A stretch of DNA of 64,000 nucleotides, from assembly GCF_024346975.1 (NCBI RefSeq), contig NZ_AP024886.1, positions 248,001-312,000 on the forward strand, read 5' to 3'. Made by a program: the position numbers and the translations under genes. Origin of the DNA: Vibrio neonatus. Lineage in GTDB: Bacteria; Pseudomonadota; Gammaproteobacteria; Enterobacterales; Vibrionaceae. The notes below the pieces were generated by a model. The model did not search any database. It was not told the origin of the DNA and saw nothing but the letters and a program-made list of their open reading frames with translations. Of this stretch, positions 4,848-37,280 are shown piece by piece; position 1 is the stretch's first letter; the number at the start of each line of letters is the position of its first letter.

Positions 4848-4858
4848 GAGACACCCAC
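4848..4858 (-). repeat. Dispersed word GTGGGTGTC (copy 1)
   Basis: GACACCCAC on the plus strand at 4850-4858, about 30 bp before the kduD start. This is the leftmost of the (A/G)TGGGTGTC copies that run from here to 36.5 kb. Confidence 0.6.
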
Positions 4859-4885
4859 TAAAAATATTCTTCTTGAGGGCAGCAA

Positions 4886-5647
4886 ATGATTCTCGATTCT
4901 TTTAGTTTGCAAGGCAAAGTCGCCATAGTGACAGGCTGTAATACTGGATTAGGTCAAGCGATGGCTATTGGTTTAGCTAGTGCTGGGTGTGATGTGGTTG
5001 GCGTAAATCGTTCAACTTCATTAGAGACTAAGCAAAGTATTGAGCAGCTTGGACGTAAATTTATTGAAGTGGAGGCCGATCTTTCTAAGCTCGATGATAT
5101 TCCCACTATTATCGATCGCGCTGTGACTGAGTTGGGGCGAATTGATGTGCTGGTGAATAACGCTGGAATTATCCGCCGCAATGATGCTATCGAGTTTTCA
5201 GAGCAAGATTGGGATGATGTGTTAAATACCAATTTAAAATCGGTATTTTTTCTGTCTCAAGCGGTAGCAAAACAGATGATGGCTCAAGGTGATGGCGGAA
5301 AAATTATTAATATCGCTTCTATGCTTTCATTCCAAGGTGGCATTCGAGTGCCTTCTTATACCGCATCTAAAAGTGCGGTGATGGGGTTAACACGTTCTAT
5401 GGCGAATGAGTGGGCCAGCCATAATATTAATGTCAATGCTATCGCTCCGGGCTATATGGCGACCAACAATACCGATGCTTTACGCGCTGATGAAAAGCGT
5501 AATCAAGAGATATTAGAGCGAATACCCGCAGGTCGTTGGGGCAAGCCCGAAGACATTGCCGGCCCTTGTGTGTTCTTAGCCTCGGCCGCCTCGGACTATG
5601 TGAATGGCTATACTGTTGCCGTCGATGGTGGTTGGCTATCTCGTTAA
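4886..5647 (+). CDS. kduD: 2-dehydro-3-deoxy-D-gluconate 5-dehydrogenase (KduD/DhuD type SDR)
   Basis: 253 aa classical short-chain dehydrogenase. The NAD(P) glycine motif is TGCNTGLGQ near the N-terminus and NNAG follows strand four. The catalytic Ser (NIASMLSFQGG) is followed by YTASK, and the C-terminus is VNGYTVAVDGGWLSR, typical of KduD. The family interconverts 2,5-diketo-3-deoxygluconate and KDG in breakdown of pectin, alginate or glycosaminoglycan uronates. An AGGG-type ribosome site precedes ATG 4886. The next gene, 54 bp downstream on the same strand, is an RpiB-fold isomerase, so the pair probably forms an operon converting unsaturated uronate products to KDG. Confidence 0.88.
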   Translation: MILDSFSLQGKVAIVTGCNTGLGQAMAIGLASAGCDVVGVNRSTSLETKQSIEQLGRKFIEVEADLSKLDDIPTIIDRAVTELGRIDVLVNNAGIIRRNDAIEFSEQDWDDVLNTNLKSVFFLSQAVAKQMMAQGDGGKIINIASMLSFQGGIRVPSYTASKSAVMGLTRSMANEWASHNINVNAIAPGYMATNNTDALRADEKRNQEILERIPAGRWGKPEDIAGPCVFLASAASDYVNGYTVAVDGGWLSR

Positions 5648-5701
5648 GTTTAGAATGATATAAGTAAAAAAATTTATCGCAGTTTACTGCAGGAGTAACA
5701 A

Positions 5702-34817: not shown

Positions 34818-35778
34818 CATTTCTCCTTATCACAACAGTGACCATGACCAGCAAGAAACCAATGAGTGCTGGCCACATAAACCACTCGTTTCTTGGGCGC
34901 CAAGATTGAGTAGCTTTTTGGATAGGTTGTAAGCTATTGATTGTGTCGTAGATATGTTCCAAATCTTTTGCGTCACGGGCTCTAAAGTATTGCCCGCCCG
35001 TCATTTCTGCAATTTTGGTTAAAGATTTTTCATCTAGGTCTTCAGCGGTATTTACGGTGCGAGTCATAAAGAAATCTTGCACTTGCATTTTGCCTGCACC
35101 TACGCCGATGGTGTAAATCGTCGCTTTATATTTCTTGGCAATTTCAGCTGCTTGAATAGGGTCTAATACCCCAGCATTGTTACTGCCATCGCTGAGTAAA
35201 ATCATGACACGTTGCGGCGCATCGCTATCGACAAAGGTTTTGGTGGCAAGCCCAATCCCGTCCCCAATCGCAGTTTGAGTGCCGATTAGCTTCAGAACCG
35301 TTTGATTTAGCTGCTCTTTTACTGTTTCTCTATCGAAGGTTAATGGTGTTTGCAAATAAGCATGATCGGCAAAATAAACCAATCCTAAGCGATCCCCTGA
35401 ACGCTTATCAATAAAGTTTGAAACCACATGCTTAACCGCCGATAAACGATCAATGTAGTCATTACCCTGCTGCATATCCTCTTGACTCATAGAGTAAGAG
35501 AGGTCAATAACCAGCATCATATCGCGATGTTTAGGGTGTATTTCGATAGGGTCACCGTACCAAACAGGTCGCGCGCTAGCGGTAACTAATAAAACCCATG
35601 CCAAAATAGCGAGAATTTTAGCCAGTCGGGTACTTTTGTCTTGTACCGTCGCGGTTTGTGACAGGTGTGGTAAGACAACGAGTGCGTTTGCTGGTTGTTC
35701 TTTTAGAAAGCGAAATGCGAGATAAGGCAGAGGTAATGCAAAGAACATCCACCACCATTCAAAGGTAAAACCGCTCAT
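34810..35778 (-). CDS. batA: BatA-type VWA membrane protein
   Basis: 322 aa. It begins with a short N-terminal membrane segment (WWWMFFALPLPYLAF), then ILAILAWVLLVTASARPVWYGDP. The VWA domain starts MMLVIDLSYSMSQEDM, a complete MIDAS (DxSxS), with LVYFADHAYLQTPLTFDRE and MILLSDGSNNAGVLDP further on. A C-terminal helix (ALIGFLLVMVTVVI) ends the protein. Its start overlaps the DUF4381 gene by 4 bp, and its 3' end overlaps the BatB/C gene. It is part of a membrane complex with MoxR ATPase. Confidence 0.88.
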   Translation of the reverse strand: MSGFTFEWWWMFFALPLPYLAFRFLKEQPANALVVLPHLSQTATVQDKSTRLAKILAILAWVLLVTASARPVWYGDPIEIHPKHRDMMLVIDLSYSMSQEDMQQGNDYIDRLSAVKHVVSNFIDKRSGDRLGLVYFADHAYLQTPLTFDRETVKEQLNQTVLKLIGTQTAIGDGIGLATKTFVDSDAPQRVMILLSDGSNNAGVLDPIQAAEIAKKYKATIYTIGVGAGKMQVQDFFMTRTVNTAEDLDEKSLTKIAEMTGGQYFRARDAKDLEHIYDTINSLQPIQKATQSWRPRNEWFMWPALIGFLLVMVTVVIRRNDV

Positions 35779-36269
35779 GATTCATTCCAATTCCGATATT
35801 TTCTTTTAGGAGGAAGGGCATGCTCAAGCCAATAAGCACAGTCCTCGATTAGCGCAAGGTTAGTGTGGTGTTCATTCACACCAGAAGAATAAAGTCCTAT
35901 TTGCCATTGTTCGTTTTTAGCCATAAAGCGAGGCGTTGATAACTGCGAGTCTAAGAAGGACAGCCATTCATCGCCGGTCAAATTAGCGATATCTTCTCGT
36001 GGAAAGTAACTCAATGCTGCTTGGCGCAATAACTCTTGTGCTTCCGAGATAGTGAGTTGATGCGCGGGTTGATTGAGTATGAGTAAAGCCGCCTTTTTAG
36101 CTCGATTACGGTTGCGTATTTTCTTATGCGTAATAAAAGCGGCCAGCAGCACAATCACAACTAACGCCAATACCCCCCAATATCCCCAAGCCAAAGGCCA
36201 AGCGCTTGGCTCGGGTGGTAGGTGAAGTGATTTAAGAGGGAGTGTGTGTGCTTGGTTGGTTTGGGTCAT
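35775..36269 (-). CDS. DUF4381 domain membrane protein
   Basis: 164 aa with one transmembrane helix (YWGVLALVVIVLLAAFITH) near residue 40, and a Lys/Arg cluster after it. The cytosolic half has LRQAALSYFPREDIANLTGDEWLSFLD, the DUF4381 hallmark. This family sits between the DUF58 and VWA genes in MoxR operons and is thought to support the complex; its role is undefined. It starts 6 bp after the DUF58 gene's stop, at ATG 36269. Confidence 0.85.
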   Translation of the reverse strand: MTQTNQAHTLPLKSLHLPPEPSAWPLAWGYWGVLALVVIVLLAAFITHKKIRNRNRAKKAALLILNQPAHQLTISEAQELLRQAALSYFPREDIANLTGDEWLSFLDSQLSTPRFMAKNEQWQIGLYSSGVNEHHTNLALIEDCAYWLEHALPPKRKYRNWNES

Positions 36270-36275
36270 GGATAA

Positions 36276-37280
36276 TTACTTAAGTGAATGATGTAAAAGT
36301 TGTTGTAAAACCGGTGTACCGCTTGAAATCTGAGAAAGTGCGATACCGTACTGACTTAATTGCTCAGTCAATAATTGTTGCTGCTGTTCAAACGCATTTT
36401 TAATGGCATTTTTGGCTTTATGACTGGATAAGTTAACAGAAACGATATGCTCTTTTGCTTGCAGTTTTTGTACGCCTTTAGCATGGGTGTCCCCCATTTC
36501 TATTGGGTCGTATATTTGGATTGCTCTTACTCTGTTGTGGGCTGATATCTGGGTGACCAGTTTAATGTCAGCTTCAGAGAAGGCAGAAAAATCGCTTAAA
36601 ATGATTAATTCACTGCCTTTTTTGCAGCGATTGGCGATAACTTGCATAGAATCGTTTTGTTCAGGCTTGACGTTATCAAGCTGACCAAATAGTCCTTGGT
36701 TATGCACTTCACACAGTTTATTGAGCAGTTGCAGTAGGGCGACTTTAGAGGTGGATGGCCTTATTTCTGTGATGTGGTTGCCGCAGCGGATGAAAGCGCC
36801 GACGCGATCTTTGTTGGCGATGGCTATCCATGCTAATAAGCTGGCAAGGTGACACATTTGTACTGATTTAAGCAGTAGTTGTGTGCCTGTGAACATGCTC
36901 GGGGTTAAATCTAGAAATAAAACTACGGGACGTTCACGCTCTTCGGTGAACAGTTTGGTGTGCACTTTTCCTGTGCGTGCGGTTACGCGCCAATCTATTT
37001 GGCGCACATCGTCGCCTGCTTGGTACTGACGCACTTCCGAAAACGTCATTCCGCGTCCTTTGCGTGAGCTAGAATGTTGCCCGTTGAGTTGTGACCATAG
37101 GCTTTTGGCTGGTGGTTGCCAGCGTTTTCCATGCAGTTGATAAAAACTCAGTTCATCAATACTGACGGTTACGCCATTGGTGCTATCGGGCAGGTGAGCA
37201 GACGATAACGTCTGCTCTGTTTTATGCGAACGATGGGCACTCGCGCCCCAAAAAGCATGCGCTTTTAAACCTTCAAACAT
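36276..37280 (-). CDS. DUF58 domain protein
   Basis: 334 aa. The DUF58 core is clear: RQYQAGDDVRQIDWRVTARTGKVHTKLFTEERERPVVLFLDLTPSMFTG, then IANKDRVGAFI and ELIILSDFSAFSEADIK. This is a VWA-like fold linked with MoxR ATPases. A GDTHAKG loop (EMGDTHAKGVQ) holds one dispersed word at 36483-36491. It starts at ATG 37280, 10 bp after the moxR stop. Confidence 0.85.
   Translation of the reverse strand: MFEGLKAHAFWGASAHRSHKTEQTLSSAHLPDSTNGVTVSIDELSFYQLHGKRWQPPAKSLWSQLNGQHSSSRKGRGMTFSEVRQYQAGDDVRQIDWRVTARTGKVHTKLFTEERERPVVLFLDLTPSMFTGTQLLLKSVQMCHLASLLAWIAIANKDRVGAFIRCGNHITEIRPSTSKVALLQLLNKLCEVHNQGLFGQLDNVKPEQNDSMQVIANRCKKGSELIILSDFSAFSEADIKLVTQISAHNRVRAIQIYDPIEMGDTHAKGVQKLQAKEHIVSVNLSSHKAKNAIKNAFEQQQQLLTEQLSQYGIALSQISSGTPVLQQLLHHSLK

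Follow-up and report, generated by a model that had tools for sequence, protein, structure and literature searches.

A short word at the ends of a RAYT-like transposase gene and its local copies in Vibrio neonatus

Closest Described Systems

A 64,000-nucleotide stretch of the Vibrio neonatus genome (contig NZ_AP024886.1, positions 248,001–312,000; hereafter the window) contains many copies of the word RTGGGTGTC around a predicted RAYT-like transposase gene, and the relation of word to gene is the subject of this report. The word is followed below as the 8-mer TGGGTGTC, together with its variant TGGGTGGC. Canonical REPs are imperfect palindromes with a GT[AG]G foot at their base and are present in many copies genome-wide, and elements of the IS200/IS605 family (IS608, ISDra2) have subterminal hairpins at both ends.

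In the available text of the relevant paper, REPs are described as palindromes headed by GT(A/G)G, perfect copies in Stenotrophomonas number 37 to 427, and more than one-third of the REPs of Thauera lie near a rayt gene, with preferential formation there (Nunvar et al., 2010; PMC2817692). RAYT-like genes with terminal inverted repeats (TIRs) have been named TIRtrons or TIRYTs, and a GGGGWSAS motif is given for some TIRs only, in the text available (Di Nocera et al., 2013; PMC3733652); TIRtrons belong mostly to subclass 2.1 in the sections available of a later survey (Quentin et al., 2018; PMC6006769). In those sections, TnpA-Y1 subclass 2.3 is characterized by a median length of 325 amino acids (aa), two insertions, a long C-terminal tail, the HuH motif NHYH, the W motif WE and the Y motif YVDLNP (Table 1 of that survey), and no REP-like sequences are reported with its genes.

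A Local Cluster of the Word Around a RAYT-Like Gene

The word is probably the cognate end-tag of the transposase encoded at 30076–31056, a HuH/tyrosine protein of TnpA-Y1 subclass 2.3, with word-sized copies scattered locally. Of the 38 copies of RTGGGTGTC in the genome (3.84 Mb, two contigs), 18 are in the window, where the mean over 100 dinucleotide shuffles was 0.56 and the highest count 3. The 20 copies beyond the window do not exceed chance (0.56 per 64 kb, or about 34 genome-wide), and the reversed word, a control, occurs 57 times in the genome vs. 38 for the word. The enrichment is therefore a local cluster and not a genome-wide family, and in this genome the word family is restricted to about 32 kb. 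A preliminary description of the window had listed the 18 copies, and each coordinate and strand was verified, as was the right limit, with no copy beyond 36,491. The intergenic bias it had proposed to check is present: 13 of the 18 copies are intergenic, vs. an intergenic share of 16.2% for 4850–36491 in the gene list of this analysis (binomial p = 2e-7). It had also held that a repeat family should exceed expectation genome-wide; the total of 38 is close to expectation, and the local clustering is nonetheless real.

The gene lies within the cluster, with TGGGTGGC at its two ends:

30076..31056 (-): predicted RAYT-like Y1/HuH tyrosine transposase, 326 aa, TnpA-Y1 subclass 2.3-like
31148..31155 (+): upstream terminal word TGGGTGGC, outward
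29871..29878 (-): downstream terminal word TGGGTGGC, outward
29841..29848 (-): second downstream word TGGGTGGC
29823–29883: two-copy tandem repeat with a 30-bp unit, holding words 29871 and 29841
31209..31216 (+): degenerate outward word TAGGTGTC; TGGGTGTC at the same place in V. halioticoli

The protein has the HuH/Y1 fold of E. coli TnpA-REP and the motifs NHLH, FWEGR and YVDLNP; NHYH is found in 18 of 27 aligned sequences, across which N71, H72, H74, Y184, N188 and P189 are invariant. It resembles subclass 2.3 in its WE and YVDLNP motifs, in its size (326 vs. a median of 325 aa, judged on length alone), in the divergent copies, several per genome in some species, and in the occurrence of homologues in Alteromonadales, but differs in the outward TGGGTGKC or GTGNNTGTCC words around most of the genes fetched (Quentin et al., 2018, in the sections available). 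The absence of flanking REP-like sequences from that subclass thus does not hold here; this is a new observation on words that are not hairpins, and not a defining trait. Of four matches in the V. neonatus genome, one is a close gene of this type. Other Y1 genes of the genome were considered as owners of the word and set aside: the five loci covered out of seven Pfam matches (L142, L151, L153, L155, and L156, not L147 and L157) have neither TGGGTGTC nor GGGTGTC. A PDB sequence search returned no relevant match.

End Words Around Homologous Genes

The arrangement was compared in 40 loci around high-scoring homologues from six genomes (G136, 7; G023, 19; G110, 9; G188, 3; G150, 1; G157, 1), each of 20 kb except L216 (12 kb), with 44 gene rows in total, one of them partial. 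An outward TGGGTGTC or TGGGTGGC is present within 400 bp upstream in 39 of the 44 rows (nearest gap 63–67 bp in 27 of the 39) and downstream in 35 (188–239 bp past the aligned end in 30 of the 35), and 33 rows have it on both sides. Outward words mark the ends of the window gene and of most homologues fetched. Outward orientation is seen in 49/52 words closer than 400 bp, 14/17 at 0.4–1 kb, 14/15 at 1–3 kb and 48/75 at 3–10 kb.

As in TIRtrons, the flanking inverted repeats are unrelated to GTAG REPs, and some TIRs likewise form dispersed families, but TIRtrons have GGGGWSAS, a motif that is not the one found here, whereas the present loci have TGGGTGKC or GTGNNTGTCC, encode proteins of another subclass and have locally confined words (Di Nocera et al., 2013, in the text available). 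GTGNNTGTCC takes the place of the word in another set of Vibrio loci (20, from five genomes): 52 copies lie within 400 bp, 46 of them outward, and 41 at 0.4–10 kb, 23 of them outward, vs. 3 for the reversed control; two of these 20 loci have no GTGNNTGTCC. Between lineages, the type of word seems to vary together with the enzyme (TGGGTGKC, GTGTGTGTCC, GTGCCTGTCC, GTGAGTGTCC).

Genome G110 has nine similar units at different places, 91.5–94.1% identical among the 12 pairs listed. When these units were aligned in pairs (36 alignments), the alignment end was no more than 12 bases from the nearest word in 30 cases on the left and 27 on the right, and the sequence common to near-identical units at separate places extends about to the word. 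The HuH/Y1 fold and these near-identical mobile units recall IS200/IS605, but the subterminal hairpins of that family were not found in the 45 bases adjoining 113 end words on the inner side (folding z −0.01 ± 0.10). In G023, about 20 places match the window transposase gene; nine copies scored as proteins are 73–76% identical to the window transposase, with open frames.

Homologues were also found in 15 plasmid records, of which 10 were fetched and scored. Eight have an outward word on at least one side: three on both (Shewanella decolorationis and two of Pseudoalteromonas, L251 and L253) and five on one, either upstream only (two Pseudoalteromonas, L250 and L252, and Aeromonas) or downstream (Pseudoalteromonas NC201, and Saccharobesus, whose gene aligned in two pieces). 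The Photobacterium and Catenovulum loci have outward TGGGTGTC or TGGGTGGC on neither side, and Photobacterium has other TGTCC words. The upstream gap is 61–69 bp wherever the word is present in unsplit genes. The Saccharobesus plasmid locus has seven TGGGTGTC in 21 kb, where it is the top 8-mer; the other nine plasmid loci have 0 to 4.

Among named genomes, the nearest loci are in V. halioticoli NBRC 102217, where long stretches are about 94% identical at the nucleotide level, and in V. comitans. The cluster is conserved in V. halioticoli, where a single contig, orthologous to the window, has 20 of the 44 words, and in G074, which has 47 words, eight on contig C42 and eight within 600 bases of C43; window copy 4850 has its counterpart on C43 at L141:5430. 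V. comitans (G115 and G205, which gave identical coordinates and are counted as one genome) has neither transposase gene nor cluster, and its locus L038 has two words in 21.7 kb. Tandem repeats with units of 9 and 16 bp begin near the outer side of the downstream terminal word in L139 (G074, C42), about 220 bases after the transposase stop, and likewise in L223. A search for inverted word pairs matched 8 of 227 genomes, six with the gene; the remaining two (G059, G046) look coding, and the reversed control matched four. Direct pairs matched 14 of the 227 genomes, nine with the gene, and the reversed control also 14, with one pair each; every genome with at least two direct pairs (six genomes) has the transposase gene.

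Local Dispersal of Word Copies

Within the window, the dispersed copies are as follows:

4850..4858 (-): intergenic; kept in V. halioticoli and G074
10539..10547 (+): intergenic; kept in V. halioticoli
10662..10670 (+): intergenic; one base different in V. halioticoli
16156..16261: intergenic inverted pair of 106 bp, GACACCCAT...ATGGGTGTC (words 16156 - and 16253 +); additional related copies in V. halioticoli
17433..17441 (+): intergenic
17477..17485 (+): intergenic
18201..18209 (-): intergenic
18368..18376 (-): intergenic
26527..26535 (+): intergenic
26592..26599 (+): intergenic, variant word TGGGTGGC
26657..26665 (+): intergenic
26801..26809 (+): intergenic; kept in V. halioticoli
26843..26851 (+): intergenic; kept in V. 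halioticoli
27498..27506 (-): in a solute-binding protein gene
29430..29438 (-): in a LysR regulator gene; broken in V. halioticoli
31657..31665 (+): in a BatD-like gene, about 600 bp outside the transposase; kept in V. halioticoli and G074
33936..33944 (+): in a VWA/TPR Bat protein gene; kept in V. halioticoli and G074
36483..36491 (+): in a DUF58 gene

Words 27498, 29430, and 36483 may be coding coincidence, because orthologous genes of relatives have near-matches at the same codons. At word 33936 the aligned relatives have a gap, except V. halioticoli and G074, the two relatives that the comparison of word 31657 covered.

At many loci, extra copies collect in the intergenic DNA of the gene's own neighbourhood. 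Counted over the 40 loci up to 10 kb from the genes, TGGGTGTC has 159 copies vs. a mean of 22.6 and a maximum of 55 for 150 permuted words, and the excess persists at 3–4 kb (26 vs. 2.65), 7–8 kb (14 vs. 2.36) and 8–9 kb (12 vs. 2.49), with weak or control-level counts at 1–2 kb (6), 4–5 kb (6) and 6–7 kb (2). Beyond 400 bp from the genes, 64 of 107 copies are intergenic vs. a mean of 2.97 of 22.3 for 200 permuted words, with at most 23 intergenic. Ranked by enrichment among 8-mers, TGGGTGTC comes first in 6 of the 40 loci and is one of the three highest in 9. Regions up to 10 kb from the known gene copies make up 6.6% of the listed sequence of G023 and contain 51 of the 100 words listed (of 124); with clusters collapsed, 22 of 61 are near genes vs. 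10.3 in rotations, a value reached by 8 of 2000 rotations among the words listed. The rotation test is conservative, with all 13 chromosome-2 gene copies folded into the listed part, where 11 of the 20 gene places are located. For G188, the listing covers the first 50 of 100 words, and 22 of them lie within 10 kb of genes, whose surroundings make up 9.8%.

Form of a Single Copy

Alignment of 211 distinct copies from 45 stretches shows conservation from about −6 to +16, A/T-rich and mainly A on the 5′ side of TGGGTGTC, and a pyrimidine followed by A/T-rich sequence on the 3′ side; dispersed copies are reduced to the word with A/T-rich arms, about 24 bp. The shared flanks expected in the preliminary description are thus present over this short span, with little in common further out. 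Duplicated 8-mers within 90 bp are more frequent on the 3′ side (97/338) than on the 5′ side (60/338) or at random places (192/2700), in a count of TGGGTGTC and TGGGTGGC words in which overlapping words of one tandem run are counted repeatedly. Among 84 pairs of neighbouring words up to 160 bp apart, 64 are direct (34 of them spaced 18–45 bp), 17 have the order GACACCCA..TGGGTGTC and three the opposite order.

Proposed Mechanism and Alternatives

If the word is the end-tag of the transposase, the enzyme would act on a strand that has become exposed, probably one at a replication fork, nicking it next to the word, and the cut strand would be joined to single-stranded DNA close by. New copies would settle mainly near the gene, a cis preference, and repeated nicking could leave short duplications, more of them on the 3′ side of the word.

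Several points weigh against this reading. The 40 loci are a non-random choice from only six genomes; 8 of them have at most one TGGGTGTC within 10 kb. In the window, the gene ends are TGGGTGGC and the dispersed copies TGGGTGTC, the latter with mixed orientation (9 outward and 10 inward of 19); across the 40 loci, TGGGTGGC is common at gene ends (57) and little dispersed (8 of 37 intergenic beyond 400 bp). GTGNNTGTCC is equally divided between outward and inward at 3–10 kb (14 vs. 14), and the copies of G074 are spread over two contigs. A flank in common with any gene end was found for only 10 of the 161 dispersed copies; copying from gene ends is therefore not visible, and this origin of the dispersed copies was dropped.

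The same comparison bears on an unlikely alternative, in which the words were not made in place but are relics: many transposase units would once have inserted and since been lost by deletion, leaving solo ends behind. Units are mobile in some genomes (G110), a truncated RAYT-like frame in G136 (C14, L146:1471–1728) breaks at a TGGGTGTC word, and the 106-bp two-ended element is common to V. halioticoli and the window, all consistent with such a history; yet likeness to the inside of any compared gene end is confined to those 10 copies, and the V. neonatus genome, with its single close gene, has at least 13 intergenic words.

It is very unlikely that the word is a canonical REP/BIME family recognized as a hairpin with a GTRG foot, as the preliminary description had suggested. 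Its proposed tie to a RAYT enzyme is supported, with a RAYT-like gene inside the cluster, the word on both sides and the layout recurring in most homologues fetched, and the 17 inverted pairs are of REPIN type. The GTGG-N4-CCAC form that it noted, as GTGG-GTGT-CCAC, is possible in some copies only, and the hairpin foot is not supported: swapping arms among the 211 copies revealed no covariation (mean helix 2.83 vs. 2.79 ± 0.08 for swapped arms), and folding with DNA parameters differs little from shuffles at gene ends and dispersed copies alike (mean z −0.01 to −0.31; the strongest, −0.31 ± 0.09, for spans of dispersed copies). The hairpin model was dropped on these two negative results: the word is not a covarying hairpin. 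Neither the foot and palindrome nor the high genome-wide copy number of REPs is found, and dispersal across the V. neonatus genome is absent. The locus resembles RAYT–REP systems in joining a Y1 transposase to cognate intergenic repeats, but the words are linear, 8 bp, local and few in this genome (Nunvar et al., 2010, in the text available).

That the word is an operator of a local transcription factor governing the neighbouring genes is highly improbable, given that, although 13 of the 18 copies are intergenic and catalase, AhpF-like and AhpC-like genes lie within the cluster (18587–26323), transposase units are flanked by the word at unrelated loci as well as in other genera, close copies are frequently in tandem and the neighbouring genes are of mixed function.

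Other Features of the Window

A small open reading frame of 51 aa at 17961–18116 (+), with the C-terminal sequence GVCCGSCS, is flanked by two word pairs. A perfect (TGTTGC)n run at 33394–33472 encodes a poly-glutamine tract in the VWA/TPR Bat protein (32931–34820, -); its 8-mers are commoner in the V. halioticoli stretch (AGCAACAG, 48 vs. 17), and tandem matches 98–99% identical occur in G188.

Significance

Because REPs near rayt genes (Nunvar et al., 2010) and TIR-flanked relatives (Di Nocera et al., 2013) have been described, as the available parts of those papers show, the kind of system is already known. As far as the searches show, what is new within the literature covered is the words of subclass 2.3, their linear form and their neighbourhood limits; in titles and abstract openings neither these words nor repeats for subclass 2.3 were found described, and the TGGGTGTC matches listed were irrelevant. 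The words are candidate substrates for a subclass with which the published survey, in its available sections, found none, and they are apparently linear words instead of hairpins. We tentatively propose that a subclass thought to be without cognate repeats recognizes short, linear, non-palindromic words, each gene copy building up and keeping a private word territory in the 10–30 kb around it. Genome-wide counts may overlook families that are dense only near their enzyme, and local confinement would make the reach of a single-strand transposase from its gene measurable by sequence alone. If the proposal of private territories is true, these words would represent cis-acting, neighbourhood-limited spread of repeats in bacteria.

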